A stretch of 58,409 bases of DNA from positions 1 to 58,409 of the IMG/VR virus record IMGVR_UViG_3300029319_000050; one strand, written 5' to 3'. Origin of the DNA: a virus. The position numbers and the translations under genes are program-made. Under the pieces are notes generated by a model that did no database searches, was not told the DNA's origin, and saw only the letters and a list, made by a program, of their open reading frames with translations. Positions 19,149 through 42,141 of this stretch are shown one piece after another; position 1 is the stretch's first letter, and every line of letters starts with the position of its first letter.

Positions 19149-19422
19149 CTTCTCCTCCTTGCTCGAAATAATCTGCGTTATCACTTGTTATACCTTGATA
19201 TTTATCAGGTAGTTCTTCTACTAAACTTAATGCTATTAGTTCCTCTTCATGTGGATCTAAATATATGGTTACTAAACCAGACCATCTTACATAAACAAAA
19301 CAACTTGGTGCTACTTGGTAAACGTCATTTACAAAAGTTTCTAGTTTAAGAGGTTTCTCAAAAGCATTTAATACAAAGTATGTTGCTTGACCGTAATCTG
19401 GGAATGTTAAATTTTTAACCAT
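19126..19422 (-). CDS. Accessory protein, unknown (98 aa)
   Basis: The chosen ATG (MVKNLTFPDYGQAT) overlaps the stop of the MazG-like gene; a TTG 24 bases upstream is the alternative. The product has strands YFVLNAF, CFVYVRWSGLVTIYLD and a helix EELIALSLVEEL, with an acidic C-terminus. Coupled translation with the MazG-like gene suggests a shared unit. No family is recognised. Confidence 0.55.
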   Translation of the reverse strand: MVKNLTFPDYGQATYFVLNAFEKPLKLETFVNDVYQVAPSCFVYVRWSGLVTIYLDPHEEELIALSLVEELPDKYQGITSDNADYFEQGGEDEPTKSN

Positions 19423-19819
19423 CTTTCTTAAATAAACCGTCTTCAAGTTTACCTGTACGTTTACTAATCACTTTATAAACTTCGTTCATCGTATATCCAG
19501 GATTAAAACCTAACTGTTTACAAAGTACAATCAAACATACAAAACAATCACCTAGTCCGTCAATAATATTAGGTTTATCTTTATAGGCGATAGCTTTAGC
19601 AGTTTCACCAACTTCTTCTACAAGTTTTAACATCTGCATAGTTGGTTGTACATCTTCGTTTAATAGACCACGATCCTCTGCCCACTCGATAATATTAGCG
19701 ACTGCTATATCTTCACGCTCTGGGCATATATCTTTTAATGGGATAGGGATCGTTACTAAAGGCTCACCTTCAATTAGCCTATCTTCTTCTACTTGATAAT
19801 TAGGTTCATCTCTTTCCAT
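19415..19819 (-). CDS. MazG-like nucleotide pyrophosphohydrolase
   Basis: This 134-residue protein has an acidic N-terminus. A MazG-type helical domain follows from about residue 60: MLKLVEEVGETAKAIAYKDK supplies the metal-binding Glu residues and NIIDGLGDCFVCLIVL the second acidic motif. Such enzymes hydrolyse (d)NTPs to monophosphates, or ppGpp-like nucleotides, in the cytoplasm. Phage MazG proteins are thought to modify the nucleotide pool during infection; here one could remove dTTP or dCTP and favour a modified base, which is inference. The start follows a GGAAG site just after the upstream stop. Confidence 0.75.
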   Translation of the reverse strand: MERDEPNYQVEEDRLIEGEPLVTIPIPLKDICPEREDIAVANIIEWAEDRGLLNEDVQPTMQMLKLVEEVGETAKAIAYKDKPNIIDGLGDCFVCLIVLCKQLGFNPGYTMNEVYKVISKRTGKLEDGLFKKDG

Positions 19820-19820
19820 A

Positions 19821-20225
19821 TTAACTTCCCATAAATGCAAACTGCATCATAGGCTCTTCATCATAGCCTTTTTCCATAAACTCTATTTCAGCAGTCATTT
19901 GTTCTAAATCTAAAGGGTTATCGGCTAATGCACCTGTTTCATAATCGAAACCTGTAATAATACCGATCCCTGCATAAGCGTTATTGACCGTATGCGACAT
20001 ATCTTTAAATCGCCAATACCTTTGGTTACTATGTAATAAACCATTATCGTCTAACATAACTTGTAAATATTTTGACGGAACTTTATCACATGGGTAATCA
20101 GTCATAGTAACTGTATCACATTTAATAACATGGTATGCCCAATCGAGAGAGTTATCGTTTGGCATTTTTTGTTTTAACACTGTTTGGTCAACAGGGTTAA
20201 CTACATAAACATCTATTTCTTTCAT
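19821..20225 (-). CDS. DUF3846-like accessory protein
   Basis: This 134-residue acidic protein contains KYLQVMLDDNGLLHSNQRYW and YAGIGIITGFDYETGALADN, a pattern like the DUF3846 group of phage and plasmid proteins (recalled, not searched). The function of that group is unknown. It is the first gene after the promoter at 20265-20306 and is followed without a gap by the MazG-like gene. Confidence 0.6.
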   Translation of the reverse strand: MKEIDVYVVNPVDQTVLKQKMPNDNSLDWAYHVIKCDTVTMTDYPCDKVPSKYLQVMLDDNGLLHSNQRYWRFKDMSHTVNNAYAGIGIITGFDYETGALADNPLDLEQMTAEIEFMEKGYDEEPMMQFAFMGS

Positions 20226-25969: not shown

Positions 25970-26159
25970 TTTTCTCTCCGTAAGTTGTGCGTCTTTCAAC
26001 GTTCTTTGGTTTTGGTGTATAAACTAAAACAAACGCACCACAGTTTGGGCAACTTAAATTTGTTTCCATCACGTAATCTTCATCTTCCTCTATATCGTGA
26101 TCTCCACCCCATATAAGTTGTGTATTACAGTTCCAACAATTCACTTTATCTCTCCCCAA
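25947..26159 (-). CDS. Zinc-ribbon protein (70 aa)
   Basis: This 70-residue protein holds NCWNCNTQLIWGG near the N-terminus and LSCPNCGAFVLVY after a 20-residue acidic linker: two C-x2-C knuckles, a typical zinc ribbon. The C-terminal tail is basic (KPKNVERRTTYGEKNEQRIK). It overlaps the DNA polymerase stop. A role with nucleic acid or as a polymerase-associated factor is possible. Confidence 0.65.
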   Translation of the reverse strand: MGRDKVNCWNCNTQLIWGGDHDIEEDEDYVMETNLSCPNCGAFVLVYTPKPKNVERRTTYGEKNEQRIKT

Positions 26160-28000
26160 CTTGCTCCTACTTCCATATCTATTTCCATAGGCACCGTTAA
26201 ATTAACACAATTAATCATAGCTTCTTTAACTTTATCTTTTTGTTCTTCGGTTGCTAGAGAAAAATCTAGTTCATCGTGCACTTGTAATAATGGTATTATT
26301 CCTTGTTTACGTACCTCTAACATTGCTAACTTGGTCATATCTGCTGCTGAACCTTGAATTAATCTATTTAATGCTTTATATGTATATGCACGTTTTAATT
26401 CATTACCATATTTTTCTTCAGCCTTTTCCTTAGGTAATGGTGATACTTCATTAAAACTACCATTCGGTTCCCATAAATCAAACCTAGCTTTCCTACCACC
26501 TAATGTTTTTACATACCCTCTATCAGAACCTAACTTAGTACAATAATCCATAAGCCCTTTTATAAAAGGAACTTTAGTATGGTATTGAGATAGTAGCTCG
26601 TTACCTTCTTCCTCAGATACCCCTAGCTCGTTTATAAGCTTTTTAACACCCATCCCATACGTTAGCCCTAGATTAATATCTTTAGCTTGTTTGCGAGGTA
26701 TGCTTGCCATATCTGCTACGATTTGGTGGAAGTCAGCATTACCACTTAAATAACTTTCTACTGCTTGATCAGCCCCTGTCATTTTTAAACGACTAGCATA
26801 ATGGACAGTAATTCTTGGTTCTTGTTGGCTATAATCAAAACAACACCACTCTTCTCCATCTTCTGGAATAAATATCGAACGGATCATTGGACCTATTTCA
26901 GGATCTCTTGCAGGCACTTGTTGTAAGTTTGGATTAGAATAACTAAACCTACCTGTAACTGTACCACCTATCTCTGACCTAGAACTATGTGCTTCTGCAT
27001 GTATTCTACCGTTTACTTCATGGTCAAAGATCATTTTCTTTATAAAAGTGCCACCAGCTTTGTTATATTTACGAGCCTTAGCAATAGCTTTAGGTAGCTC
27101 GTGTTCGTGGTTTTCTAACCAATTAGCTTGGAAACTTGGTGAGCCTTTTTCAGTATATGGGTAATATAAATTAATTTTATCGAATGCTTTTTGTATAGAT
27201 GCGTTAGCCCATATATCCACTTCTACACCGTATTGTCTTTTGATATCTAATAAGATTGCTTGTTCTTTTACCGTAAGTTGTTGCATAATCTTTTCAGCTT
27301 TTTCTAGGTCAACCCTAACCCCAAGCATCCGCATTTCTATAACAAGCTTTACTATTTGCATTTCAGTATTAAAAGCTTTATCTAAGTTCTCATCAGATAT
27401 TTTAGTCTTTAATACTTTCCATAAATCTAACGTAAGTGCTGCATCTTGTGCAGCATAAGGTCCAACATATTTGGACGGTAACTTCCACATCTCACCTTTA
27501 TCTTTTAATCCATAAGCATTTAGTGCCTCGTCTAATAAGTTTTCATCTTTTTTATCACCACAATATTTTTCACCTAAATTATCTAGTGAATATGAAAAAG
27601 CATTTTCATCTAATAATGGTGCAGCAATAAGAGTATCTTTTATATCTCCTTTTACTTCAAAACCTTCAGATGTGAGCCACCCTAAATCGTATGCAGCGTT
27701 ATGAAATACTTTTGTATTATCTGCATCTAGTTGTTTTTTAAGCCACCTATAAACAATACCTTTATCTAAATTACCTCCACCAAGATGAGAGAAAGGAAGA
27801 TAAATACTTCCCTCCTCCCAAGCCACTGCAACACCTATTATCTCTCCATCTTTTCTAGCCCAACCTGATCCCTTAGTCCTCAAATTAGGGTCTCGAGTTT
27901 CTAAGTCTATACTGAACTCTCGACATCCAGTTAGGTTAGGTAGAGTTTCTGGGATAACCCAGTCTGTTGCAGGGCTAAACAGTGTCTTCTGTAGGCTCAC
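26141..28000 (-). CDS. DNA polymerase, family A (PolA) with proofreading exonuclease
   Basis: This 619-residue replicative polymerase starts at a GTG. Exonuclease motifs are all present: Asp32/Glu34 in SIDLETRD, Asn101/Asp105 in HNAAYDLGW, Tyr182/Asp186 in YAAQDAAL. Polymerase motif A is FDYSQQEPRI (389-396), motif B RKQAKDINLGLTYG (436-449), motif C QVHDELDF (574-580). Motif B has Leu (444) at the place of E. coli Phe762, and motif A has Gln where Ile is usual. There is no 5' nuclease domain. It is read in one unit with the TS-like and hmU-kinase-like genes, as if to incorporate a modified nucleotide. Confidence 0.92.
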   Translation of the reverse strand: MSLQKTLFSPATDWVIPETLPNLTGCREFSIDLETRDPNLRTKGSGWARKDGEIIGVAVAWEEGSIYLPFSHLGGGNLDKGIVYRWLKKQLDADNTKVFHNAAYDLGWLTSEGFEVKGDIKDTLIAAPLLDENAFSYSLDNLGEKYCGDKKDENLLDEALNAYGLKDKGEMWKLPSKYVGPYAAQDAALTLDLWKVLKTKISDENLDKAFNTEMQIVKLVIEMRMLGVRVDLEKAEKIMQQLTVKEQAILLDIKRQYGVEVDIWANASIQKAFDKINLYYPYTEKGSPSFQANWLENHEHELPKAIAKARKYNKAGGTFIKKMIFDHEVNGRIHAEAHSSRSEIGGTVTGRFSYSNPNLQQVPARDPEIGPMIRSIFIPEDGEEWCCFDYSQQEPRITVHYASRLKMTGADQAVESYLSGNADFHQIVADMASIPRKQAKDINLGLTYGMGVKKLINELGVSEEEGNELLSQYHTKVPFIKGLMDYCTKLGSDRGYVKTLGGRKARFDLWEPNGSFNEVSPLPKEKAEEKYGNELKRAYTYKALNRLIQGSAADMTKLAMLEVRKQGIIPLLQVHDELDFSLATEEQKDKVKEAMINCVNLTVPMEIDMEVGASWGEIK

Positions 28001-28304
28001 TTAGTTTATCCTTAGCAAGTTGGTCGAATATATGCGACTCTACTAATAAGAGGTATCGTCTAAGATCACCAATATCGTCTAATATACCGTCTGCACTAGG
28101 GTCTTGTAGGGCAGTCTCAAAGACATCGTAACCAAGCTTTTTAACTTGGTTCTCTATCCTATCCCACTTGCGAGCTAACATCATGAAAGCACCTACACCA
28201 CCACGTTGTTTCCAACTTGTACCGTAAGACTGCTCAGCAACTTTTAGGGCTTCTACATCACCCCATGCAAGGTCTTCCATTAGCTTATAATTATTACCAC
28301 TCAT
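27975..28304 (-). CDS. Conserved phage protein, possibly nucleotide-modification associated (109 aa)
   Basis: This 109-residue helical protein contains YGTSWKQRGGVGAFMMLARK followed by WDRIENQVKKLGYDVFE and DGILDDIGDLRRYLLLVESH. This pattern is common in phage genomes. It faintly recalls the DUF1599 / Nmad1 group, whose members occur with nucleotide-modification genes; this is from memory and unverified. It overlaps the polymerase gene and almost touches the TS-like gene, so it may serve the same pathway. Confidence 0.6.
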   Translation of the reverse strand: MSGNNYKLMEDLAWGDVEALKVAEQSYGTSWKQRGGVGAFMMLARKWDRIENQVKKLGYDVFETALQDPSADGILDDIGDLRRYLLLVESHIFDQLAKDKLSEPTEDTV

Positions 28305-29311
28305 TTATCTCTCCTCTTAATATAAAGTACACAAGCCTCTCTCCAATCTTTTTGTATGATTGTTTCAGCCATTTCTAAAGCGTTTTGTTTTTCCCCACTC
28401 TTATATAAGTTCCAACTTTTAATAATAGGTATAGCAACACGTTCTAAGAATGGGTTATTAAATTTATAATCGTTACGGTAATCACCGTCCATTACAAACT
28501 TTAATTCTCTATCAAAAGTTGTTTTATCTTTTACTAAAGGTATAGTCTGCTCATGTAGAAGCTGTGCAACCTTAGTATCATTAAATCTAGTTAAACTAGT
28601 TATTGGGTTAATAGTAGAAACTTTATCTTTCCATATTGGGTAATCTATATAGATGTGTAAATTATCTGTAAAGTGATAATAAGCACCTACTTTTACACCA
28701 ATCATTGCTGCCATATATTCATGTAATACACTAAAGTGAACCATGTTAGCACCAAAACAACCCCATATTAAATCGTTAGACCTGTTAGTTACAGTCATAC
28801 GTAAAGCACCGTCTCTAATTTTAAAATAGATTTGGGTGTTACAAGGAACATCTTTACCTTTACCGTCAAGATGATTTAAATCTTGTTCTGTACCCCACAT
28901 CTGTAATACACAACGTCTATCATCTGGATTTCTTTTTAACATATTTATAATTACTTGTAGTTGGTCTTTACCAAACATCCACCTCCACCTATAACCATAA
29001 GCACCCCATAAACTAATCCCATCATCACTGAACTCACGCATACGAGGTACAAAATGTTCCATAGAAGATAAATCTCCACGACCTGCTAACATCCATAAAC
29101 TTTCAGCTAAATGGAAAAAAGGATTACAATCCCTTACAGAATCTGCTAATACTCTTACCGTTGGGTATTGGTATTTAATTAAGATAGGATCTTTTAGTTC
29201 CCAAACTTTACCGTTGCGACTATCGTATTCAATGTAATTAATATCAGAACCAAATAAATCTAATCCTTTATAAAACGCATCGTTTACATTAAACGCTGTT
29301 ATCGTATGCAT
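28301..29311 (-). CDS. Thymidylate synthase family enzyme (ThyA or dUMP hydroxymethylase)
   Basis: This 336-residue protein has the ThyA fold signatures: GAYGYRWRW (about 103-111), catalytic Cys157 in KDVPCNTQIYFKIR, Arg177/Asp180 in NRSNDLIWG, Asn189 in GANMVHFSVL and His219/Tyr221 in DNLHIYIDY. Asn at the base-discriminating place suggests a uracil rather than cytosine substrate. Unusual are Asn after the catalytic Cys (His in most ThyA) and one extra residue before Asn189. Next to an hmU-DNA-kinase-like gene it may make 5-hydroxymethyl-dUMP instead of dTMP. The start is set at the ATG with AGGAG; a GTG at 29335 is the alternative. Confidence 0.85.
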   Translation of the reverse strand: MHTITAFNVNDAFYKGLDLFGSDINYIEYDSRNGKVWELKDPILIKYQYPTVRVLADSVRDCNPFFHLAESLWMLAGRGDLSSMEHFVPRMREFSDDGISLWGAYGYRWRWMFGKDQLQVIINMLKRNPDDRRCVLQMWGTEQDLNHLDGKGKDVPCNTQIYFKIRDGALRMTVTNRSNDLIWGCFGANMVHFSVLHEYMAAMIGVKVGAYYHFTDNLHIYIDYPIWKDKVSTINPITSLTRFNDTKVAQLLHEQTIPLVKDKTTFDRELKFVMDGDYRNDYKFNNPFLERVAIPIIKSWNLYKSGEKQNALEMAETIIQKDWREACVLYIKRRDK

Positions 29312-30158
29312 ATTTACTCCTTGTTCTTCCTTCACCTTTTAATATCCTTGAGTATTTATCAAACTCACATAAACCACCTTCTACTTCTCTAAGTTCAAAG
29401 TTATGTCTATTAGAATTCATAATATGTATAGGTAATCTTTCTTTACATATTTCAAATAACTCTCTCATCTCACCCACCCAATCATTAGACTTTCTTGTAT
29501 AATCAAGTGGTCTACCTGTTAACCTGTTAAGTCCACGCATAGCTCCTGGACCAGCATTAGCCCAAGTCAATCTATCTTTAGCATCTTTACCAAACATAGT
29601 AAAACTCAAATCAGTAACTACCTCATATGCCATAAATGGACCTTGATAAGGAAAGGTTCGTAAGTAACTCCACATACCTTCTAAAGAGTTTTTATGTTTA
29701 TGAGCTTCTTCAAGTATTTCATCTTTTCTACCCCACATATAATTTATACATCGGATAATACCTTGTAGCTTATCTAAACCGTCAGGGCTTTTAATTACAT
29801 ATGCACCAGTAATCCATTGATCTTGTTTTCTAATTTGTACATCGGCAATCAAGGGATCCCAGTCTGTTAATAAATCGTATTTAACTAAAGTCTTACCTGT
29901 TTTAATTAAATTAAACCACCTAAAGATAACAGTTGCCATAAAAATATCCTCTGTGTTACCTAAAGGCTCACGGACATTTTCTATATACCACCTGCTAGTT
30001 CTATCGTCGTTACGAAATACTTGACAGAATTTATATTCTTTTAGTATTTCGTCTTCAGTCCAAGGGGGATCAGAACCTTCTTCTTCTTTTTTGACTCTGA
30101 TCCTTTCCCTTTCGTTTATCCAATAGATATACCTATCTAATTCCTCCTCGATAAACAT
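29289..30158 (-). CDS. 5-hydroxymethyluracil DNA kinase-like protein (alpha-glutamyl/putrescinyl thymine pyrophosphorylase family)
   Basis: This 289-residue protein matches the aGPT-PPlase/HMUDK family by its spaced motifs: FCQVFRNDDRTSRW (44-57), VIFRWFN (77-83), TGAYVI (117-122), FPYQGPFMAYEVVTDL (169-184), WANAGPGAMRGLNRL (199-213) and LCEFDKYSR (263-271). In hypermodifying phages members phosphorylate 5-hydroxymethyluracil in DNA, the activating step before a side chain is attached. It overlaps the TS-like gene by 23 bases and touches the methyltransferase gene, so all three are co-translated. No dedicated transferase for the next step is recognised nearby. Confidence 0.82.
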   Translation of the reverse strand: MFIEEELDRYIYWINERERIRVKKEEEGSDPPWTEDEILKEYKFCQVFRNDDRTSRWYIENVREPLGNTEDIFMATVIFRWFNLIKTGKTLVKYDLLTDWDPLIADVQIRKQDQWITGAYVIKSPDGLDKLQGIIRCINYMWGRKDEILEEAHKHKNSLEGMWSYLRTFPYQGPFMAYEVVTDLSFTMFGKDAKDRLTWANAGPGAMRGLNRLTGRPLDYTRKSNDWVGEMRELFEICKERLPIHIMNSNRHNFELREVEGGLCEFDKYSRILKGEGRTRSKYAYDNSV

Positions 30159-30997
30159 TACTTAGTTAATCTCCAAAAACAGTTATTAGATGTTTCAGGA
30201 TAAAATGTTGCGGCTGCAACTCTTAAAAACTGTCTACCGAACCTTTCTTCTAACATACTAAGTTGTTCAGGTGTCCAAATTTGTTTTGCACGTTGTGCTT
30301 GGTTGAACCTACGCATCTGTGTAAAGACACCTACTACAGACTCTAATTGAAAATACCTTTCTAATAAGTCCTTTAGTTCTTGAAAGCCCCACTCGTAAAT
30401 ATGGTCTTCTGGTAATTTATCATTAGAACCATCGTGGTTAGGTGTAGATATAAATACTGTTCCACCCTTTTTAACAACTCTGCTAAGTTCTGCAATCCAA
30501 GGCTCTACAGCTTCTCTAGGCATATGTTCTATAACTTCTGTAGACCAAGCTACGTCTATAGATTCGTTATTATGGGGTAGGATAGGATCAACACTAACGT
30601 CTTTAATTTCCAAAGTAGCGTTAAAGTTTTTCAACCATGTAGTTTCGTCAAGATGACAACCGTTACCTGACCAATATTGTATTTCCTGAAATGATGCAGG
30701 ATCGATATCGTATCCATAATATGAAGATATAACATCAGACTTTTTAACTACATATGATTTATATAAAGTCCTCAGTACCCAAACTTCACCACACCCAATC
30801 TCTAACGTATCTAACGGTCTACCTTGACGTTTAGATTCGTCTATTAAGAATGATGCAATCTTTTCAAACCTAGACATATGAGCAATCTCATCAGGTCTAA
30901 AGTTCGCAAAAACTCCTGCATGAGCAATATTCATACGAGTATTTTTACAATCGTTTGGATTTTCCTCCGCAGTTAACTTTTTTCTAATACTTGGCAT
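30158..30997 (-). CDS. Class I SAM-dependent methyltransferase
   Basis: This 279-residue protein shows motif I TLEIGCGEVW (64-73), an acidic motif II in YYGYDIDP (93-100), DVAWSTEVIEHM (148-159) and GGTVFISTPN (178-187), a Methyltransf_11-like order. It has no DPPY or NPPY motif of base-amino DNA methylases, so a small-molecule, sugar or modified-base substrate is more likely. It leads the unit with the hmU-kinase-like and TS-like genes. It might methylate the decorated base or an intermediate; this is inference. GGAG lies eight bases before the ATG. Confidence 0.8.
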   Translation of the reverse strand: MPSIRKKLTAEENPNDCKNTRMNIAHAGVFANFRPDEIAHMSRFEKIASFLIDESKRQGRPLDTLEIGCGEVWVLRTLYKSYVVKKSDVISSYYGYDIDPASFQEIQYWSGNGCHLDETTWLKNFNATLEIKDVSVDPILPHNNESIDVAWSTEVIEHMPREAVEPWIAELSRVVKKGGTVFISTPNHDGSNDKLPEDHIYEWGFQELKDLLERYFQLESVVGVFTQMRRFNQAQRAKQIWTPEQLSMLEERFGRQFLRVAAATFYPETSNNCFWRLTK

Positions 30998-31036: not shown

Positions 31037-31065
31037 ATATTACAAAAAACCTCTTTACAAGTCAA
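31037..31065 (-). promoter_or_regulatory. Promoter of the modification/PolA unit
   Basis: TTGACT (31060-31065), a 17-base spacer and TAATAT (31037-31042) on the minus strand, about 40 bases before the methyltransferase ATG. It overlaps the helicase stop codon. It lacks the upstream box of the other early promoters, hinting at different timing. Confidence 0.55.
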
Positions 31066-32548
31066 AATACTTCCTAGTTGTAGGTTCAACTAAATAAAGA
31101 CGTTTCTTTGCCCTTGTCATACCGACATAAAAAACCCTAGTTTCATCGTCAGGATCTCGTTGGTAACTATTAAAAACTTTATGTGTCATATCTGTTAGTA
31201 GTATTACGTTATCAGCCTCTGCTCCTTTTGCTGCATGTATAGTCGATATACGTATACGTGGTTGTTTTAATACCTTCTCTCCTCGTCTTAGCATAGCTTG
31301 TAGATAACTTCTCTCTGTTATAGAGATCATATCTAAAGAATCGAACCACTTAGCTGTAGGTAACTTACCCACTATACCTTCTATATAAGTTCTATCTACT
31401 AATTGTTCCCCTTCAAATAACTTTAATTGTCTTTTAGGCACTTGTTTTATATATCGCAAAAAAGTACCACATTCTTGCATAGTAAGTTTTTCACCTTTAT
31501 GAAACCTTTGCCAATTACGTACACCCTCTAATTTAATCCCTGTAATACTTGGGCTACCTTTTACTTCAAAAAACCAACCCTCGTGTCTACAATGGTCTAT
31601 AACGTTTTGTAATAAATAATTTGTTCTACCTAAAACAAGCCATGTACCGTCACTCATATCTATATGTTCAAACCCTCGTTCCCAACTAACTTCACCTTGA
31701 TCTTCTTTTGGGTTCCAAGATTTAGCTACTCTTTTAGATAATCTACCGATAGTTTTTCGAGCTAATTCGTGTACTGATTTAGGTATCCTATAACTTTGTT
31801 CTAGTACCTTTGCGTTCTTACAATTACTAATAAGATAATCTACATCAGCTCCTGCCCATTTATAAATAGCTTGATCGTCATCACCTGCTATATATACTTT
31901 ATGACTGCCTTCTATAATTTTACGTACCACTGCCCATTGCAAAGGACTTAAATCTTGTGCTTCATCTATAAATAAAGCATCAAGTTTAGGTGCATAACCT
32001 CTTTGTAAAAAGAAATCTAACATATCAGTATAATCGTATAATCTCCTAGACTTCTTATAGGCTTCGTACCCTCTACTAAATCTATCTAAAGCATACCAAT
32101 TAACTGCATCTTCTACTTCATGCCATAAATCTTCTAATGGTATTTTACGCATTCTTGCTAGGTTATCTATAAACATCAACCTATCGTCTTTAGTCATACT
32201 ATAAATACTTCCGTCTTCTGTACTTTGAGAACCTGTTAATTTTATATTTAATTTTTCGTTTAGTTCTATAAGGTGAGTACGTTCAAATACATCTTCTTTA
32301 TTTAAACCTAGTTGATGAAAACTTAATGAATGCAATGTTTTAAAATAAGGTAAATCTTTTTTAGATAATTCAAACTTATGCATTGCTCTCTCCATACCCT
32401 CGTTTACAGCTCGTTTAGTAAACGTAAAGAAACCAATCTTATCTGGAGATACTCCACTATCTAGTTCATTTTCTATGAGCTGTAATAACGTTGATGTCTT
32501 CCCAGTTCCTGGAGGTCCAAGAATCACCTGTGTTTTATCAGGTAGCAT
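31055..32548 (-). CDS. UvrD/Rep-like superfamily 1 helicase
   Basis: This 497-residue helicase has Walker A GPPGTGKTSTL near residue 13, motif Ia IGFFTFTKRAV, motif II FIDEAQDL, motif III VYIAGDDDQAIYKWAGA, motif IV-like LEQSYRIP, motif V ISTIHAAKGAEADNVIL and motif VI VFYVGMTRAKKRLYL. These are the UvrD/PcrA motifs. It is shorter than UvrD (about 720) and lacks large 1B/2B insertions. It probably unwinds DNA for PolA, as I see no DnaB-like or T7 gp4-like helicase. The start is the ATG overlapping the upstream gene; an upstream TTG is possible. Confidence 0.9.
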   Translation of the reverse strand: MLPDKTQVILGPPGTGKTSTLLQLIENELDSGVSPDKIGFFTFTKRAVNEGMERAMHKFELSKKDLPYFKTLHSLSFHQLGLNKEDVFERTHLIELNEKLNIKLTGSQSTEDGSIYSMTKDDRLMFIDNLARMRKIPLEDLWHEVEDAVNWYALDRFSRGYEAYKKSRRLYDYTDMLDFFLQRGYAPKLDALFIDEAQDLSPLQWAVVRKIIEGSHKVYIAGDDDQAIYKWAGADVDYLISNCKNAKVLEQSYRIPKSVHELARKTIGRLSKRVAKSWNPKEDQGEVSWERGFEHIDMSDGTWLVLGRTNYLLQNVIDHCRHEGWFFEVKGSPSITGIKLEGVRNWQRFHKGEKLTMQECGTFLRYIKQVPKRQLKLFEGEQLVDRTYIEGIVGKLPTAKWFDSLDMISITERSYLQAMLRRGEKVLKQPRIRISTIHAAKGAEADNVILLTDMTHKVFNSYQRDPDDETRVFYVGMTRAKKRLYLVEPTTRKYFDL

Positions 32549-32729
32549 TTGTTTTCTTAGCTGGGGATACAACCTCTATGTGCCATATCTCACCTCGTTC
32601 TAATGCTTTCTTAGCCTCTACTTTAAGTTCATCTAAAGTTTTTTCCATAACGTTTTCACAATATATAACTACCTTCATATAATCAAGGTTTTGTTTTTGT
32701 GATAAATTTATTTCTACTTTCTCTTTCAT
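32538..32729 (-). CDS. Small protein, unknown (63 aa)
   Basis: This 63-residue protein has a short strand (MKVVIYCENV) and a helix (KTLDELKVEAKKALERGEIW), then a strand IEVVSP and a basic tail. It lies between the AlkB-like and helicase genes, overlapping both. It may be a small partner of one of them. No family is recognised. Confidence 0.6.
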   Translation of the reverse strand: MKEKVEINLSQKQNLDYMKVVIYCENVMEKTLDELKVEAKKALERGEIWHIEVVSPAKKTNAT

Positions 32730-33310
32730 ATTCCTGTTCTAAATGTTAAATTAATCCTATCACCTATGGGTGGCACAGTATCTAAAATAGCATGGGTACT
32801 GTTCATTTGACTCTTACCGTCAAAAATAAGTACGTCACCGTCTTCTAATATGTATTGTTTTGTACGTATAATATTTAACATAGCAGTATTAATTACACTA
32901 GTGTTACTAGTTCTTTTAATATATTTTTCGTAAGTTCGCCACTCGAATACTCTAGGCGAACCGAAAGATACAGAAGCAACTAAATCTTTTTGTGTAGGCA
33001 CTGTATCAGAATGGTGGGGTATACCTTTACCATTATTGTCGTAATAGCCACATAAACAAAAATTAAATTTAACTTCTTTACCTAACTCTCTTTTAATTAA
33101 AGTTTGTAAATTATCTCTAATATAAATCATAGGTTGAGTCCATGGATCAGGATCATAATCCCTTCCTGCATAACTAAACTGTTTATCACCAAAAGCTCTA
33201 GTAGGTCTACCCATAACTTTTTTCCCGTCATACTCTCTAAGTTTAGGTCTATCCCATTTCTGTATTAAAGGGCTATATCCCCCCATACCTTCTTTAATAA
33301 ATTTAATCAT
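32726..33310 (-). CDS. AlkB-like 2-oxoglutarate/Fe(II) dioxygenase
   Basis: This 194-residue protein carries the iron site His-x-Asp in GIPHHSDTVP, the distal His in MNSTHAILD and the 2-oxoglutarate Arg pair in DRINLTFRTGI, the AlkB RxNxTxR ending. A nucleotide-recognition region with YYDNNGKG precedes the HxD, as in AlkB. AlkB proteins oxidise alkyl groups on DNA or RNA bases. In this phage it may repair template damage or further oxidise a modified base. It is read between primase and helicase genes in the replication unit. Confidence 0.85.
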   Translation of the reverse strand: MIKFIKEGMGGYSPLIQKWDRPKLREYDGKKVMGRPTRAFGDKQFSYAGRDYDPDPWTQPMIYIRDNLQTLIKRELGKEVKFNFCLCGYYDNNGKGIPHHSDTVPTQKDLVASVSFGSPRVFEWRTYEKYIKRTSNTSVINTAMLNIIRTKQYILEDGDVLIFDGKSQMNSTHAILDTVPPIGDRINLTFRTGI

Positions 33311-33413
33311 CTTTATTTATATCCTTATTAAATATTTTATTAGCTTGTTTTTGAAAAGATATTTCTATCCATCTATCTATAACTCTACGTACCCACTTTC
33401 TAATTTTACCCAC
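33303..33413 (-). CDS. Small basic amphipathic protein (36 aa)
   Basis: A GTG at 33413 overlaps the primase stop (TAGTG) with GAGGAAG upstream and opens 36 codons (starting MGKIRKWVRRVIDRWIEISF), ending inside the AlkB-like start. The product is one basic amphipathic helix with two Trp. The overlaps on both sides support translation, but the small size keeps this tentative. Confidence 0.42.
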   Translation of the reverse strand: MGKIRKWVRRVIDRWIEISFQKQANKIFNKDINKDD

Positions 33414-34942
33414 TAAATTTCTTCCTCGATATCTGTTATATCTTTAGGTATAGCAAAAACTTCATTCTGTGTTTGAAACTCAGGTACATACCATACGTTT
33501 GTACCTTTACCTTTGATATTAAAAAAGTGCGATCCACCTCCCATTTGTCTTAGCTTAGATGTAATTTTATTACGTGCATATTCTTTAAAACCATTCCGTG
33601 TTAAATAATCTACTAAATCACTAACCCTAAAATATGTCTTACTTGCATCAGTCCAAGGTTTATGTAAAAGTATTTCATCACGTTCCCTTGCAGGTCTTTC
33701 TGTACAAAACGTTTCTAGTAGTTCTTTAAAGTGACCTTCATTAGATGCATCGTCTGGCATTTCTATTACAGTTAATGTATCTAAGAGTTGTTGTATAAGT
33801 TGCCTCCATACATTATCTTTTACTTTAGGTGGTATAACGTTTAGTGCATCCATACACTTTCTTTGAAATCTATTTTGATTTAATAAGTCGTCAGTTTCTA
33901 ACTCTAATCTACCACCCTCAACATCTAAAAACCATATAGGTGGATCACTGTTTTGTTTAGTTAAATTACTAAACTGTGGTGTACCACCTGATGAACCAAT
34001 ACCAAACTTCCTAGTTCTACAAACTGTTGAATTACAATGTCCAGCAATAGGCTGATCATTACATCTATAAAAGTAATCTTTTTTAGCAACTTGTTTAATT
34101 ACAGTTAAAACTTCTTGTGCCACTAACGGTGGCGACATATTAGTCATATTAACTTGTTCTAATCTTTTTTCCCAATCGTCTTCGTATTTCTTTCTTAGGA
34201 ACACCCCTACATTAAATAATCCAGAGTTCCTAGTTCCTTTAGGAAAGCCCTGTGTAATAAGATGCTGTAAACAAGGTGGGGCTTGGTCTAACCATTCTTC
34301 ACTTTGCGATGCCTCTACTACATATTCTTCTAGTTCTTTAGCTGTTATAGTTTTTTCACTTGCATAATTTATAAATTCTTCAGGTGTTAGTGCAACTCCA
34401 GATTTACCATAAGCATATCTTGTAGAGTCCTCTCCACCAAAATATGGCATATTTAATGCACTGCCTTTATCGCCCCTTTCTAATAATAGTTTTGTTTGTT
34501 TTGGAAATATTTCTGCTTGCCCATAACCAAGACAAGCAGCAATATCTTTTAACTTCTTTTGCATTAATGCTGCTGGAACAGGATCGAATACAAATAAGAA
34601 TATATGTGCTCCACCACTTTTACTACGACATAAAACCAAAGGTAGTTTCATTTGGTGAAGTCTTTTTGCGAGTTTCTTTAGATCGATAGTAAAGTCATCT
34701 ACATCAACAGCACCCCAATTACAGCAATTATCTTCATTAATCGGTACAATACCAATCGAAGTTTTACCGTCAAGGTGCTGTTGCCACAAGTCTTTTAATC
34801 TGTTTTCAGTTAGTTGTTCTGAAACAGTTACAACCTTGCCACCTACTTTACCGTCATCTCTAAGTTCAGACGTTTGTGTAAATTTACCATATGCCTGCTT
34901 TAGCCCTGCAAAAAGTTTTGCATAATCTCGAGCTAAAGACAT
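33413..34942 (-). CDS. Archaeo-eukaryotic-type primase (TOTE-system primase-like)
   Basis: This 509-residue protein contains a primase-polymerase core: the metal motif WGAVDVDDF (about 74-82), then LVLCRSKSGGAHIFLFV with the Ser-x-His-like signature, and AEIFPKQTKLLLERGDKGSALNMPYFGG, an order matching the TOTE-type AEP primases. A Cys-rich region follows (APPCLQHLITQGFPKGTRNS; YRCNDQPIAGHCNSTVC), like the Zn or Fe-S site near the primase C-terminus. The last 180 residues are helical and may bind partners. It should lay primers for PolA. It lies directly downstream of the probable DNA-binding proteins. Confidence 0.82.
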   Translation of the reverse strand: MSLARDYAKLFAGLKQAYGKFTQTSELRDDGKVGGKVVTVSEQLTENRLKDLWQQHLDGKTSIGIVPINEDNCCNWGAVDVDDFTIDLKKLAKRLHQMKLPLVLCRSKSGGAHIFLFVFDPVPAALMQKKLKDIAACLGYGQAEIFPKQTKLLLERGDKGSALNMPYFGGEDSTRYAYGKSGVALTPEEFINYASEKTITAKELEEYVVEASQSEEWLDQAPPCLQHLITQGFPKGTRNSGLFNVGVFLRKKYEDDWEKRLEQVNMTNMSPPLVAQEVLTVIKQVAKKDYFYRCNDQPIAGHCNSTVCRTRKFGIGSSGGTPQFSNLTKQNSDPPIWFLDVEGGRLELETDDLLNQNRFQRKCMDALNVIPPKVKDNVWRQLIQQLLDTLTVIEMPDDASNEGHFKELLETFCTERPARERDEILLHKPWTDASKTYFRVSDLVDYLTRNGFKEYARNKITSKLRQMGGGSHFFNIKGKGTNVWYVPEFQTQNEVFAIPKDITDIEEEI

Positions 34943-36722: not shown

Positions 36723-38159
36723 ATGAAATATAAATTTAAAACTGTGCCTTATGAGCACCAATTAAAAGCACTCAAAGAAAGCTGGAATAAGCCTTCTTAC
36801 GCTTATTTTATGGAAATGGGTACAGGTAAATCTAAAGTGCTCATCGATAATATAGCCCTTTTGTATGATAGAGGAGCCATAAATACAGCTGTTATTATTG
36901 CACCTAAGGGTGTATATCTAAACTGGTTAGATAAAGAAATACCTAATCATATGCCAGACCATGTAGAAACATATATAGCTTTATGGAAAGCCTCACCAAC
37001 TAAAAGAAAACAAGAGGCTTTAATGAAACTTTTTACAGAAAAAGATAAATTAAGGATTTTAATAATTAATGTAGAAGCTTTTTCATCACAAAAAGGTAAA
37101 GCGTTCACAGAAAAGTTTGTTAGGTCTACGCAATGTTTATTAGCTGTAGATGAAAGTACAACTATTAAAAATCCGAAAGCAGCAAGAACTAAAAATTTAT
37201 TAAAAATTGCTGACTATGCAAAATTTAAAAGGATATTAACAGGCTTTCCGATTACTAAATCACCTATGGATTTTTACACACAGTTTAAATTTTTAGATAC
37301 ACACATATTAGGCTATCAATCTTTTTATGCATTCCAAAACCACTTTGCAGAGGTCATTCAAAGGTCAATAGGGTCTCATAGCTTTCGTGAAATAAAAAGT
37401 TTTCGTAACTTAGACGAACTAAAACGTCTTACACAAGCCTATAGTTACAGGGTTTTAAAGAAAGAATGTTTAGATTTACCTGATAAAATTTATAACAAAC
37501 ATTATGTAGAACTAACCCCTGAACAAAATAAATTATATAAACAAATGAAAAAAGATGCGATGGCTATCTTAGATCAAGAAACAATTACAGCTACATCTGT
37601 CATGACACAATTATTAAGATTACATACGATGATATGTGGTTTCGTTAAAACAGACCAAGATGAAGTTATAGATATAGATAATAATAGATTAGATGCATTA
37701 TTAGAATTAGTTTCGTTTATGGACGGTAAAGTAATTATATGGGCTAATTATATCCATAATATCGAAAGAATTACCGAAGCACTTAAAAAAGTTTATGGAG
37801 GTGATAGTGTTGTTAGTTATTATGGTTCTACTAATTTAGATGATAGAAAAGAAGCAATAAAATTATTTCAATCTGAACAAGAACACCCTAGATTTTTTGT
37901 AGGTAATCAAATGACTGCAGGTTATGGTATTACGTTAACGGAAGCTAACAACGTAATTTATTATTCTAATAGTTTCGATTTAGAAAAAAGATTACAGTCA
38001 GAAGATCGAGCTCACCGTATAGGACAAGTTAATAAAGTTACTTATTATGATTTAACAGCTAAAGATACAATAGATGAAAAGATTGTTAAAACGTTATGTT
38101 CTAAACACGATTTAGCTAAACAAGTTTTAGGTGACGGTTATCAGTCTTGGCTTTCTTAA
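36723..38159 (+). CDS. SNF2-type DEAD/DEAH-box helicase
   Basis: This is the only plus-strand protein gene. Its 478 residues hold an SF2/SNF2 helicase: Walker A MEMGTGKSKVL (about 32-42), motif Ia TAVIIAPKGVYLNW, DExH-type AVDESTTIKNP, motif III ILTGFPITKS, motif V NQMTAGYGITLTEANNVIYY and motif VI QSEDRAHRIGQVNKVTYYDL. SNF2-like phage helicases translocate on DNA, possibly remodelling protein-DNA complexes or forks. It has a weak Shine-Dalgarno site. Its stop overlaps the stop of the facing late gene, with no terminator visible between. Divergence from the replication unit implies separate control. Confidence 0.9.
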   Translation: MKYKFKTVPYEHQLKALKESWNKPSYAYFMEMGTGKSKVLIDNIALLYDRGAINTAVIIAPKGVYLNWLDKEIPNHMPDHVETYIALWKASPTKRKQEALMKLFTEKDKLRILIINVEAFSSQKGKAFTEKFVRSTQCLLAVDESTTIKNPKAARTKNLLKIADYAKFKRILTGFPITKSPMDFYTQFKFLDTHILGYQSFYAFQNHFAEVIQRSIGSHSFREIKSFRNLDELKRLTQAYSYRVLKKECLDLPDKIYNKHYVELTPEQNKLYKQMKKDAMAILDQETITATSVMTQLLRLHTMICGFVKTDQDEVIDIDNNRLDALLELVSFMDGKVIIWANYIHNIERITEALKKVYGGDSVVSYYGSTNLDDRKEAIKLFQSEQEHPRFFVGNQMTAGYGITLTEANNVIYYSNSFDLEKRLQSEDRAHRIGQVNKVTYYDLTAKDTIDEKIVKTLCSKHDLAKQVLGDGYQSWLS

Positions 38160-39112
38160 AGTGCACCTTTTGAAGGTCCACTGACATCAATCGGATCTTC
38201 CATTTCGTCTTGTAATATATCTATAATATCTTGAGCGAAGTCCATTTGGTCTTCAAATAAATAACCGAAAACACCACCAATACCTCTGCCTAAATCACCA
38301 ACAAAATCACCAACACCTTGTAAAAACCCTGAACCTTCGTTAGTGCCATAAGTTGTAACATTACGTGGTAGGTAATCTGATATTTGTGTTCCAGGAAGTT
38401 GACCAGTGATACCACCTAAATCAGACATGACCGAATCATATGTTTGACCACCTGAGCCACCTAACCCACCGATGCCACGACTCATAGGTCCAGTGGTGTC
38501 ATCTCCCATCACACCATCACCTTGTACATTATCAGGTCTATTAGGTGTTGTAGTAGTACTGCTAGTGCCCTCAGGGAAAGTTTCTATTTTTTGTCCTAAA
38601 CCTCTAGCTATATCTATTGCATAAGGATCGGCACCAAAGCCTAGTTGCGGAAAAAATCCTGCACGTTGTCTTTGTATTAAACGTAACATAGGATCATTCA
38701 TTGCTTGAATTAATTCGCTTTCTTGTTGCCTAGCTGTAGGGTCATCAGGTATAGATATTCTAGGATCACCAACCATTTGATTAGATAAACCACCCATTTG
38801 CATACCCATTGCATTATCGAAGTCTGCAGTAGCTTCCATTAATTCGTTTATACGAGATTTAACTTTACCTGTTTCATCAGTTGTATATTTATCTACTTCT
38901 ACATCGTATACTGAGGGGTTATCTTTTTTAGACCTACCTTCTAATTTAGTAACTTCGAAGTCCATCCCTTTAATCATATTACGTATATCAGAACCTTCTC
39001 GCATAATATTATTAGGGTTATCACCTTGCATAGCTCTATCACCTAATTTTTGTGTCATCTGTGATAGAGACGAAATCCCTTGCATTAAATTTTTTATATC
39101 TTCGTTTATCAT
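38156..39112 (-). CDS. Late protein, probably internal virion, unknown (318 aa)
   Basis: This 318-residue acidic protein ends the late block. It is rich in Met, Gln, Gly and Asp (KLGDRAMQGDNPNN; GGLSNQMVGDPRISIPDDP), with a Gly-rich central stretch. It resembles the last internal or ejection proteins of marine podoviruses in position and composition. The C-terminus is acidic (DIIDILQDEMEDPID). Its stop codon overlaps the stop of the facing helicase gene. Confidence 0.5.
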   Translation of the reverse strand: MINEDIKNLMQGISSLSQMTQKLGDRAMQGDNPNNIMREGSDIRNMIKGMDFEVTKLEGRSKKDNPSVYDVEVDKYTTDETGKVKSRINELMEATADFDNAMGMQMGGLSNQMVGDPRISIPDDPTARQQESELIQAMNDPMLRLIQRQRAGFFPQLGFGADPYAIDIARGLGQKIETFPEGTSSTTTTPNRPDNVQGDGVMGDDTTGPMSRGIGGLGGSGGQTYDSVMSDLGGITGQLPGTQISDYLPRNVTTYGTNEGSGFLQGVGDFVGDLGRGIGGVFGYLFEDQMDFAQDIIDILQDEMEDPIDVSGPSKGAL

Positions 39113-42100
39113 TCTTCTAATAATTTTACTTCTTCAGGTATTTCATCATCACTAAGTATACCATCATAGTTACGTGCTATTAAACCACCAATAGGTGATG
39201 TTGTTTTAATTTGGTTCATGGATTTATACCTGTTTTGTATAAAACTTTCTAATGCTTGTTCATCTGTTATTAACCTTGTTAAAAGGTCGTAACTTTTTTC
39301 TGCTTGTGTTTTATCAAATAGTCTAAATCTTACACTCATTGCGTTTAAGGGTCCTAGTAAGAATTGAAAAAGTCTTTGCCCTAAAGAATCAGGTTGTGTG
39401 ATTTGTCGCACTATGTCTTTTGCATTTTGTGCACTTTCTTTTGAAATTTCTGACATAATCCTTTTATTACTAAATTGTGTTGTTTCAGCTAATTTTTTCA
39501 AACCATCAATATACTTTGGGCTAAAGAAAATTTTATATGATTGTTCAAAATTAGGATCATTGATAGTTTTAATTAAACTATCAAGATCTATAATTTTACC
39601 CATAAAAGGATCTTTCGTGGTTATATCATCTAAAAGTATTTTTTGTAGATGAAACTGAAATTGATTTTGTAATTCAGGTGATGTTTTTAATATTCGTGCT
39701 AATTTTCTTCTTCTACTATTTAGTTGCAATTTACTTTCGTTAGGTGTGCCTCTGAACACGTCGTACACATTACTTATGACATCGTCTGTATCTCCTGTAA
39801 ATTTCTCGAATTCCTTATTTATTTGTGACACTGCATCGTCATAGGATGCTCTAGCTTTTGCTATATAATCTAAATCTCTAGCTGCTTGTCTAAATATTTT
39901 TTGGTCTTTTTTTGTTGGGTATAATCTTCTAAAAATACCACTATGTTCAGCTAAAAATTCATTGACAGCATTTTGTCTTGTTGAAGGTTTTTGACTTCTT
40001 ATTTTATCTTTTAATCTTTCACCAAATGCAAACCTTAAATCTGTTATTAATGAATCATCACCTAATTCTAAAACATCAAAAATATCATCAAAGTACTCAT
40101 TGACATTAGCATTTTTGACACTTTTATTCATGGTTTCATCGAAAAGTTGAGAAGGTAAAACTCTTCCTTTTCTTAAATCACTTATAAATTGTTTTCTTGC
40201 TAATTCATTCGCTTTTGTATATTGATTTTTAGCAAAATTCCAAGCCTCCGAAGGACTAAGCTCCATATCACCCACAGTTATTTTATTACCTGTTAAATCT
40301 GCTTGATTTAATGTGGCACTAATATCTTCGTCAACAGCCTTCATTAATTTAGTTATTTCTTTAGGGTCTAGATCAACCTCTTTTTTTCCTCCTCTAATTA
40401 AATTTAACAATTTGCGTGTTTCGTAAAGCTCACCTAAATTAAGAGGACTTATAAATTTACCTTGTGCATCTCTGTTTGATAGTTTAAGTAATAATTCCTG
40501 CGAAGCATTAGCATTATCACCAAATATTCTTTGTGCAAAAGATGGATCATCTAATACTGTAAATATAGAGTTAGTTTTCTTTTGGTTTAGTAAATTAGTT
40601 AATGTGTTTCTTGTGCTTGTTGTAGTTGCTCTATAAGGTGCGGTGCCTACTTTTACAGTTTCAAATAATGCATCTTGTGCTTCCAAGTTTTCTTTTACTA
40701 AATTAGATAAATATGTTCCACCTTCATCAGGTAGTTGTCGATATAAACCAATACCTAAACCAGAGGCTGCTCCTTCGTATCCAGGAATTTCTTTAATTTT
40801 AGCAGCCAAACGTTTTTCATTTAATTTTAAATTACTTCTAACTTCTTCTAATATTTTATTTTTATTCTCTCCAGCAGCGGCTTTGAAATTTCTACCAAAA
40901 ACCTCTATCGCTTGTTCACCAAAATCTTCACCAAACTCTGTAGATAGTTGAGTAGCGAATTTTATTAAAGATTCTTCATTATCTTGTATATTTTGCAGAT
41001 AAGCTCGTCTGACTGCAGGATCAGTTCCTGGAGCATTAATAAAAGCATCTTCTAAAGCAAGAAGTTCCTGTGATTTATATTTTTGTCCAAGAGTAGGATT
41101 GAATCCAGGGACTTCATTAGGTTTTAATGTTGTTTCTGCTTCTTTTCTTGCATTTTGTAACATGTCGTTCATTTTATTTACTGCATCATTAGGCATTTTT
41201 TCACCTTTTAATGCTCTGTAAAATCCTCTACCTATGAAAGCTAATGAATTAAATACACCTGTGCCTGCACCTGCAAAAGCTGCTGGCTCTATTGATTGTT
41301 TCATTAAATCTACAAAATCAGCATCTTGATTCAAACCAAAAAATTGTTGACCTGCTAAAAGTTTTGCAAGCTCACCTGCAAAAGTAGCACTAGCTGAACC
41401 ACCTGCAGTAATAGCACCGCTAGTTAAATTTTTGACTACACCAACAGGTAAGTTTTTAAAAAGACCAGTTAATGCAACTTGTGCTCCAATATCTAAAGTT
41501 AGTGGAATAGCTTCTTCTGCTAAAAATTCAGCTATATCCCCCATGTCGGCTCCTGGACGATTAAATGCGACTAAACGATCTCCTTCGTTTGCTTGAAAAA
41601 CCGTGCCTATACCTGCTATATCTTCCACATAGTAAGGTTTTTTTCCAAGTTGTTTTGTTAATAATTTTACACTATCTTCAAAAGATAATTGTCTATTACC
41701 AAACCCTGCTTTTAACCTAGTTAGAAAATCTGCTCCAGATGTATTTACGTCTATTCCTATATTAGCAGCAGCTTGTAATTTTTCTTCATCGTCTAACCAT
41801 TCGCCAACAGGTCTACCAACATTTTTATATGCATCTAATATAAAATCTGTAGATAAAAACGGTGTTAGGTTTATGTTTGGTAATTTATCTTTTGAAGTTT
41901 CTGCAACATCAGCTATACCTTTTAATCCTTTACCTGCTTTTTGTAATGAGCTTTGAAAAGTTGTGGGATCGTAATCTACAGGTGTACGAGGTGCTTCTAA
42001 TTTTTTTACTAAATTACTATAATAATCTTCAACCGCTGGGTTTTCATCAAAATATTTATTTCTTTCATCATCAGATAAACTTGCAATATTTTGCAGCAAA

Positions 42101-42141
42101 GTAGATTCTTTTTGATTTAATAAGGTAAGTGGCTCAGCCAT
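39109..42141 (-). CDS. Large internal virion / DNA ejection-type protein (1010 aa)
   Basis: This is the largest protein of the genome at 1010 residues. It is mostly helical, Lys/Glu/Leu-rich, with a hydrophobic Gly/Ala-rich zone at about 205-300 (IPLTLDIGAQVALTGL; VGVVKNLTSGAITAGG; AAFAGAGTGVFNSLAF) that could insert in a membrane. Size, order and composition fit the internal core proteins that podoviruses eject to build a DNA conduit. I see no lytic transglycosylase motif. It overlaps the next gene by four bases. Confidence 0.65.
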   Translation of the reverse strand: MAEPLTLLNQKESTLLQNIASLSDDERNKYFDENPAVEDYYSNLVKKLEAPRTPVDYDPTTFQSSLQKAGKGLKGIADVAETSKDKLPNINLTPFLSTDFILDAYKNVGRPVGEWLDDEEKLQAAANIGIDVNTSGADFLTRLKAGFGNRQLSFEDSVKLLTKQLGKKPYYVEDIAGIGTVFQANEGDRLVAFNRPGADMGDIAEFLAEEAIPLTLDIGAQVALTGLFKNLPVGVVKNLTSGAITAGGSASATFAGELAKLLAGQQFFGLNQDADFVDLMKQSIEPAAFAGAGTGVFNSLAFIGRGFYRALKGEKMPNDAVNKMNDMLQNARKEAETTLKPNEVPGFNPTLGQKYKSQELLALEDAFINAPGTDPAVRRAYLQNIQDNEESLIKFATQLSTEFGEDFGEQAIEVFGRNFKAAAGENKNKILEEVRSNLKLNEKRLAAKIKEIPGYEGAASGLGIGLYRQLPDEGGTYLSNLVKENLEAQDALFETVKVGTAPYRATTTSTRNTLTNLLNQKKTNSIFTVLDDPSFAQRIFGDNANASQELLLKLSNRDAQGKFISPLNLGELYETRKLLNLIRGGKKEVDLDPKEITKLMKAVDEDISATLNQADLTGNKITVGDMELSPSEAWNFAKNQYTKANELARKQFISDLRKGRVLPSQLFDETMNKSVKNANVNEYFDDIFDVLELGDDSLITDLRFAFGERLKDKIRSQKPSTRQNAVNEFLAEHSGIFRRLYPTKKDQKIFRQAARDLDYIAKARASYDDAVSQINKEFEKFTGDTDDVISNVYDVFRGTPNESKLQLNSRRRKLARILKTSPELQNQFQFHLQKILLDDITTKDPFMGKIIDLDSLIKTINDPNFEQSYKIFFSPKYIDGLKKLAETTQFSNKRIMSEISKESAQNAKDIVRQITQPDSLGQRLFQFLLGPLNAMSVRFRLFDKTQAEKSYDLLTRLITDEQALESFIQNRYKSMNQIKTTSPIGGLIARNYDGILSDDEIPEEVKLLEE

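Follow-up and report, generated by a model that had tools for sequence, protein, structure and literature searches.

A candidate thymine-hypermodification cassette with a methyltransferase and no detected DNA kinase in a virus genome related to HTVC023P-type phages

The DNA analysed here (the window) is the whole of virus record IMGVR_UViG_3300029319_000050, which is 58,409 bp long and carries a 98-bp exact repeat at its ends. The repeat indicates that the window is probably a complete circular genome, and the absence of a gene family from it therefore carries weight. The virus is close to the HTVC023P-type phages, with 53–57% identity in the terminase and 47–54% in the polymerase. Between its UvrD helicase and family A DNA polymerase (PolA) genes lies a cassette of four genes, all on the minus strand, which encode a methyltransferase (MTase), a PF18723 protein, a thymidylate synthase (TS)-like hydroxymethylase and a conserved protein of 109 residues. 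The relevant features are as follows.

31055..32572, minus strand: UvrD-type helicase (Pfam UvrD), the upstream border of the cassette
30158..30997, minus strand: class I SAM-dependent methyltransferase, 279 aa (Pfam Methyltransf_23/11), the proposed hmdU-modifying enzyme
29289..30158, minus strand: PF18723 (HMUDK_hel / aGPT-Pplase1) protein, 289 aa (Pfam 4.6e-43), proposed as a companion protein by which hmdU in DNA is recognised or presented
28301..29335, minus strand: predicted dUMP hydroxymethylase (TS-like), 344-aa ORF with a probable start near 29311 (336 aa), assigned from its signature and a tree
27975..28304, minus strand: 109-aa protein that accompanies hmdU cassettes, recognised by its conservation in the loci of relatives
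26141..28000, minus strand: family A DNA polymerase (Pfam DNA_pol_A), the downstream border of the cassette
19415..19840, minus strand: MazG-type NTP pyrophosphohydrolase (PF03819, 1.2e-07)

A sequence-only reading of this DNA had described an operon of three overlapping genes, for the MTase, the 289-residue protein and the TS-like protein. The open reading frames at 30158–30997, 29289–30158 and 28301–29335 and the Pfam match obtained for each bear this out; the description was incomplete, because the 109-aa gene at 27975–28304 is a fourth member of the cassette. In HTVC023P, 023Pt_psg01 and DSL-LC04 the same site is free of the cassette, and UvrD adjoins PolA or is separated from it by small genes only.

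A scan of viral contigs gave 59 hits, and 57 of these loci (L017–L073, with 48–94% identity) fall in the same clade as the window. In all of them that are long enough, the MTase gene is upstream of PF18723 and the hydroxymethylase gene downstream; a few loci are incomplete (for example, L050 stops within the MTase gene and L036 at PF18723), and one (L028) has small ORFs between the MTase and PF18723 genes. The MTase is present in all 57, PF18723 in 56, the hydroxymethylase in 55 and the 109-aa protein in 52. Since the gene order is kept in relatives that differ this much in sequence, the cassette is far beyond what chance would produce. One match on a 224-kb contig (L074, 28% identity) has no hydroxymethylase gene within 6 kb and probably lies outside the family.

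The TS-like protein matches the Pfam family Thymidylat_synt (1.4e-21). Met9 of its 344-residue ORF aligns with the position at which the TS proteins of relatives start, and the gene therefore probably begins near 29311. The unusual active site that had been noticed from the sequence, with Cys followed by Asn and a one-residue insert before the base-contact Asn, is real on alignment, and the same combination is found in SPO1 gp29 and in the enzymes of M6 and Ab18; the corresponding residues are Cys-His in E. coli ThyA and Cys-Thr with Asp in T4 gp42. It has been cautioned that sequence alone separates hydroxymethylases poorly from synthases (PMC5977210). A position in the dTMP-synthase clade had been set beforehand as the outcome that would count against the proposal; in a maximum-likelihood tree the enzyme falls instead with the dUMP hydroxymethylases, grouping with those of M6 (to which it is 42% identical), Ab18 and Sonora (support 99/98) and then with SPO1 gp29 (99/99), and lies outside ThyA (96/85). 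With Cys-Asn in place of Cys-His and a place outside the ThyA clade, it does not have the features of a dTMP synthase. Its predicted role as a dUMP hydroxymethylase, which would supply the 5-hydroxymethyl-dU (hmdU) step, is well supported by the alignment and the tree.

The 289-residue protein had been read as resembling an hmU-DNA kinase. Its match to the HMUDK_hel profile PF18723 is indeed strong (4.6e-43, 148 bits against a cut-off of 25), and it is 41% identical to its counterpart in Epa5 and 33% identical to M6 gp55. The kinase assignment itself did not hold, because PF18723 is only the helical companion and a catalytic kinase domain is absent from the window. The kinase is a separate family: the protein has no Walker A motif with which it could be a kinase itself, and PF18723 adjoins a P-loop kinase gene in M6, Ab18 and Sonora, while in SBSphiC the two share a single open frame. 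In M6 the kinase gp54 (PF18748) is followed by PF18723 as gp55, and the order is the same in Ab18; in the published SN1 cassette, too, aGPT-Pplase1 and a nucleotide kinase have a gene each (PMC9476957). The invariant Arg, Asp, Lys, Tyr and Glu of PF18723 are kept in the kinase-free clade, which implies that the protein is under functional constraint there. Its structure was modelled with confidence (pLDDT 92.3), and a search with the model gave no significant match in the PDB, the best being helix-hairpin-helix (HhH) DNA glycosylases at E 0.7. Homology between PF18723 and the transferase ADDT was considered and rejected (hhalign probability 0.9%). We infer that the protein works on the DNA side, as a partner by which hmdU is recognised or presented.

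The DNA-kinase step of the sequence-only reading was not borne out by the profile searches. The P-loop kinase family PF18748 and the transferase family PF18724 (ADDT) gave no match in the window or in the contigs of 18 relatives, and the second P-loop kinase family, PF18747, gave none in the window or in six of those 18; many of the relatives' contigs are fragments, which makes absences there weaker than that from the window. M6, Ab18 and Epa5, used as positive controls, gave matches for both PF18748 and PF18724, those of the Ab18 and Epa5 kinases to PF18748 being weak and below the curated cut-off. The sole relevant Walker A motif in the window is that of the UvrD helicase, and no small P-loop protein that might serve as a kinase was found elsewhere in it. 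A gene of 160–174 codons upstream of the MTase gene in some relatives was also considered as a kinase; the listed sequences have no Walker A motif and the gene is missing from the window. The TET-associated glycosyltransferase PF20691, by which hmU glycosylation would be recognised, was not found.

The MTase occupies the position in the operon that is held by the kinase gene in M6 and Ab18. It belongs to class I by its Pfam match (Methyltransf_23, 4e-11), and its score against N6_N4_Mtase, which represents methyltransferases of the DNA base ring, is 12.6 bits, below the cut-off of 26.7. The structural model (pLDDT 79.5, weak at residues 1–33 and 189–194) is nearest to the small-molecule methyltransferases TleD, AtmM, RebM and MitM, with E values of 1e-9 to 1e-12 and global TM-scores of about 0.5. 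The class I fold leaves the acceptor unfixed and would be compatible with O-, N- or C-methylation. The only full-length match (99%) in a scan of genomes was on a 5.2-kb contig of a Maricaulis MAG. The same contig also bears the phage's UvrD gene.

We then considered which genes accompany PF18723 in general. A further 159 loci were sorted by profile matches and Walker A motifs. The neighbour is a glycosyltransferase of the TET-associated type (TAGT) in 67, a protein of the P-loop class in 49, an MTase of this family in 18 and a fused kinase in one, with 24 unclassified. Several of the P-loop assignments rest on a nearby UvrD helicase, so that kinases number at most 49, and some loci are common to both scans, so that the counts are of loci and not of independent phages. 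LuckyBarnes, for example, has PF18723 with two TET-associated glycosyltransferases and no match to PF18748 or PF18747. The partners are kept apart: no TAGT was found in the 19 MTase records, and an MTase of this family is absent from 12 glycosyltransferase records, M6, Ab18 and three contigs of the kinase class. A tree of PF18723 implies six or more switches of partner, long branches leaving some of the joins unsure. The 67 loci with a glycosyltransferase show that PF18723 is not specific to kinases. It appears to be a general hmdU module, in which the modifying enzyme is swapped among P-loop kinase, glycosyltransferase and methyltransferase. A pelagiphage glycosyltransferase with TS and aGPT-PPlase1 has already been published (PMC9599517); we found no description of the MTase version of the cassette in the literature searched.

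The 109-aa protein follows PF18723 across these classes, being encoded near it in 18 of 18 MTase loci, 55 of 67 glycosyltransferase loci and 15 of 49 P-loop-class loci, and it is 46% identical to Pam3_54, which sits within a full M6-type cassette. It gave no credible Pfam match, and a MazG-like identity was rejected (hhalign probability 0.1%). As to the enzyme that finishes the modification, the candidates named from the sequence had included the MTase and an AlkB-like enzyme. The first is the one that we favour; the second is not part of the core, since its gene is present in 14 of the 57 relatives' loci, some of these being truncated.

MTases from a distant branch of the family are likewise found with hydroxymethylases. 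With an E value under 1e-5, the MTase of the window matches just five phage records, and in all five a gene for a TS or pyrimidine hydroxymethylase lies a few genes downstream; AXL3 is in the database twice, and PW916 and MW202621 are 96% and 79% identical to it, so that these represent two independent lineages and not five. A viral scan with the MTase of MW202510 gave no match. A further 22 loci came from a scan with the AXL3 MTase; wherever the locus is long enough, it encodes a hydroxymethylase that has the T4 gp42 signature, Cys-Thr and Asp, from which its product is likely to be hmC. The profile of the hmdU-clade MTases matches the proteins of this hmC-type branch at E values of 1e-17 to 1e-23. 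Neither PF18723 nor the 109-aa gene was found in the hmC-type loci, where the MTase gene is among genes of the nucleotide pool (MazG, dNMP kinase and dCMP deaminase). AXL3 DNA resisted 35 of 37 restriction enzymes and was cut only by the two with A/T-only sites (PMC7504290), a pattern which fits a modified cytosine and which shows resistance, not its cause or the identity of the base. The conserved pairing of the distant branch with hydroxymethylases supports a predicted role of the MTase on hydroxymethyl pyrimidines.

The best explanation of these observations is a thymine-hypermodification cassette that is free of a kinase and uses a methyltransferase, to which as a whole we give about an even chance. 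In this scheme the TS-like enzyme would convert dUMP to 5-hydroxymethyl-dUMP, host kinases would carry the phosphorylation on to the triphosphate, and hmdU would enter the DNA in place of thymidine through the neighbouring family A polymerase, MazG perhaps lowering the competing dTTP and dUTP. The class I MTase would then use SAM to methylate the 5-hydroxymethyl oxygen, giving 5-methoxymethyl-dU as the simplest product, and the PF18723 protein would aid it from the DNA side by recognising or presenting hmdU. The purpose would presumably be escape from host nucleases. The parts differ in strength: hmdU in the phage DNA is very probable; that the MTase acts on the hydroxymethyl group, as gene context suggests, is a balanced proposition; and the exact product, to which the same context points, is less probable than that. 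A wider form of the proposal, in which PF18723 is an hmdU-presenting module with interchangeable enzymes and the MTase family makes 5-methoxymethyl pyrimidines, from hmU here and from hmC in AXL3-like phages, is offered tentatively.

It is also conceivable, and in our view rather unlikely, that plain hmdU is the final base, with the MTase acting on protein, RNA or a metabolite and the PF18723 protein protecting or reading hmdU DNA. There is a precedent in SP8, whose DNA has 100% undecorated hmdU (PMC7653180), and the MTase fold is a generic one. This arrangement would nevertheless leave unaccounted for the presence of the MTase in the cassette wherever it is visible, its apparent exchange with glycosyltransferases and kinases, and the tie of its distant homologues to hydroxymethylases.

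The MTase could instead act on the pool of hmdUMP or hmdUTP, with the methylated nucleotide incorporated afterwards. The hmC-type phages point this way: there the MTase sits with pool genes and without PF18723, and it may act on nucleotides and not on DNA. The MTase of the hmdU clade, however, always comes with PF18723, and the relatives of that protein are found with enzymes whose substrate is DNA; we consider action on the pool unlikely here.

We regard it as improbable that an unrecognised kinase of phage or host works with PF18723 to phosphorylate hmdU, the phosphate or a further adduct being final and the MTase acting elsewhere. The name of PF18723 (5-hmdU DNA kinase helical domain) and its adjacency or fusion to P-loop kinases speak for such a kinase, as does the finding that phosphorylation of hmdU in vitro raises restriction resistance (PMC7653180); the negative kinase searches described above and the 67 loci in which PF18723 is beside a glycosyltransferase speak against it. 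Equally improbable is a two-step decoration in which hmdU first receives a host metabolite from the PF18723 protein, whose invariant polar residues would allow it to be an enzyme, and the resulting adduct is then methylated by the MTase: ADDT was not found, and hmC-type cassettes have homologous MTases and no PF18723. The side chains of M6, reportedly derived from amino acids (Lee et al. 2018/2022), count in favour of such a decoration.

To our knowledge, all the hmdU-hypermodification routes known from cultured phages begin with phosphorylation of the DNA. A widespread clade in which a methyltransferase stands where the kinase would be, the kinase itself being absent, would imply that the chemistry is different, and it would predict a new base. 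Such a clade would also open PF18723, whose name has so far linked it with the kinase, to a direct test of its role. If the MTase does decorate hmdU, the product would be a DNA base so far undescribed, and if the MTase family makes 5-methoxymethyl pyrimidines, the O-methylated bases so made would be a class so far undescribed.

Several known systems resemble the cassette in part. As in Pseudomonas phage M6 and Yuavirus, which make 5-NedU, a PF18723 protein (33% identity) and a dUMP hydroxymethylase (42%) are encoded upstream of a family A DNA polymerase; unlike the window, M6 has the P-loop kinase gp54, ADDT, a PLP enzyme, a radical-SAM-type gene and Nmad5 (see also PMC9476957), and phmmer found no homologues of the last three in the window. 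Among cultured phages, Abidjanvirus Ab18 and Epaquintavirus Epa5 have the PF18723 proteins nearest to that of the window (41%) and a similar hydroxymethylase, but differ in having their own kinase and ADDT, and in Ab18 also an FAD-dependent oxidoreductase. The HTVC023P-type pelagiphage clades, described with TS, aGPT-PPlase1 and a glucosyltransferase (PMC9599517), are of the same lineage by terminase and polymerase and have a hydroxymethylase and PF18723 near PolA; some of them carry a glycosyltransferase, where the clade of the window has the MTase. SPO1 gp29 shares the signature of Cys-Asn, insert and Asn and falls in the same clade as the window enzyme; we know of no further decoration of hmdU in SPO1. 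The operon of Stenotrophomonas phage AXL3 encodes an MTase of the distant branch, again beside a hydroxymethylase, and differs in that the latter has the Cys-Thr/Asp of T4 gp42 and that PF18723 and the 109-aa protein are missing. AXL3 is a culturable phage that combines a distant homologue of the MTase with restriction-resistant DNA.

The gene for an AlkB-like 2OG-Fe(II) oxygenase, which is also carried by 14 of the 57 relatives' loci, is accessory and lies outside the core cassette. Many relatives have a further gene of 160–174 aa between UvrD and the methyltransferase, placed immediately upstream of the latter in L025, L032, L037 and others; the window does not carry this gene. The other genes considered here are listed with the oxygenase.

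32726-33310: AlkB-like 2OG-Fe(II) oxygenase, upstream of UvrD
33413-34942: primase carrying an archaeo-eukaryotic primase domain of the TOTE type
36723-38159, plus strand: SNF2-type helicase
39109-42141: 1010-aa protein
42143-43918: 591-aa protein

The SNF2-type helicase is the sole long plus-strand gene amid the minus-strand replication genes of the window. A comparison of the 1010-aa and 591-aa proteins with PHROG gave no matches at E 0.001.

A 5.2-kb contig from a Maricaulis MAG bin (L270) encodes a 99% identical methyltransferase and carries the phage's UvrD; it is likely to be phage DNA inside that bin.

The hmC-type operons (L078-L099) combine the methyltransferase with MazG, a dNMP kinase, a dCMP-hydroxymethylase-like enzyme and a dCMP deaminase, single members being undetected now and then. 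In Brevibacterium phage LuckyBarnes (L100), where a search for the PF18748 and PF18747 P-loop kinases found no match, the genes next to that for the PF18723 protein encode a pair of TET-associated glycosyltransferases as well as a hydroxymethylase-like enzyme.
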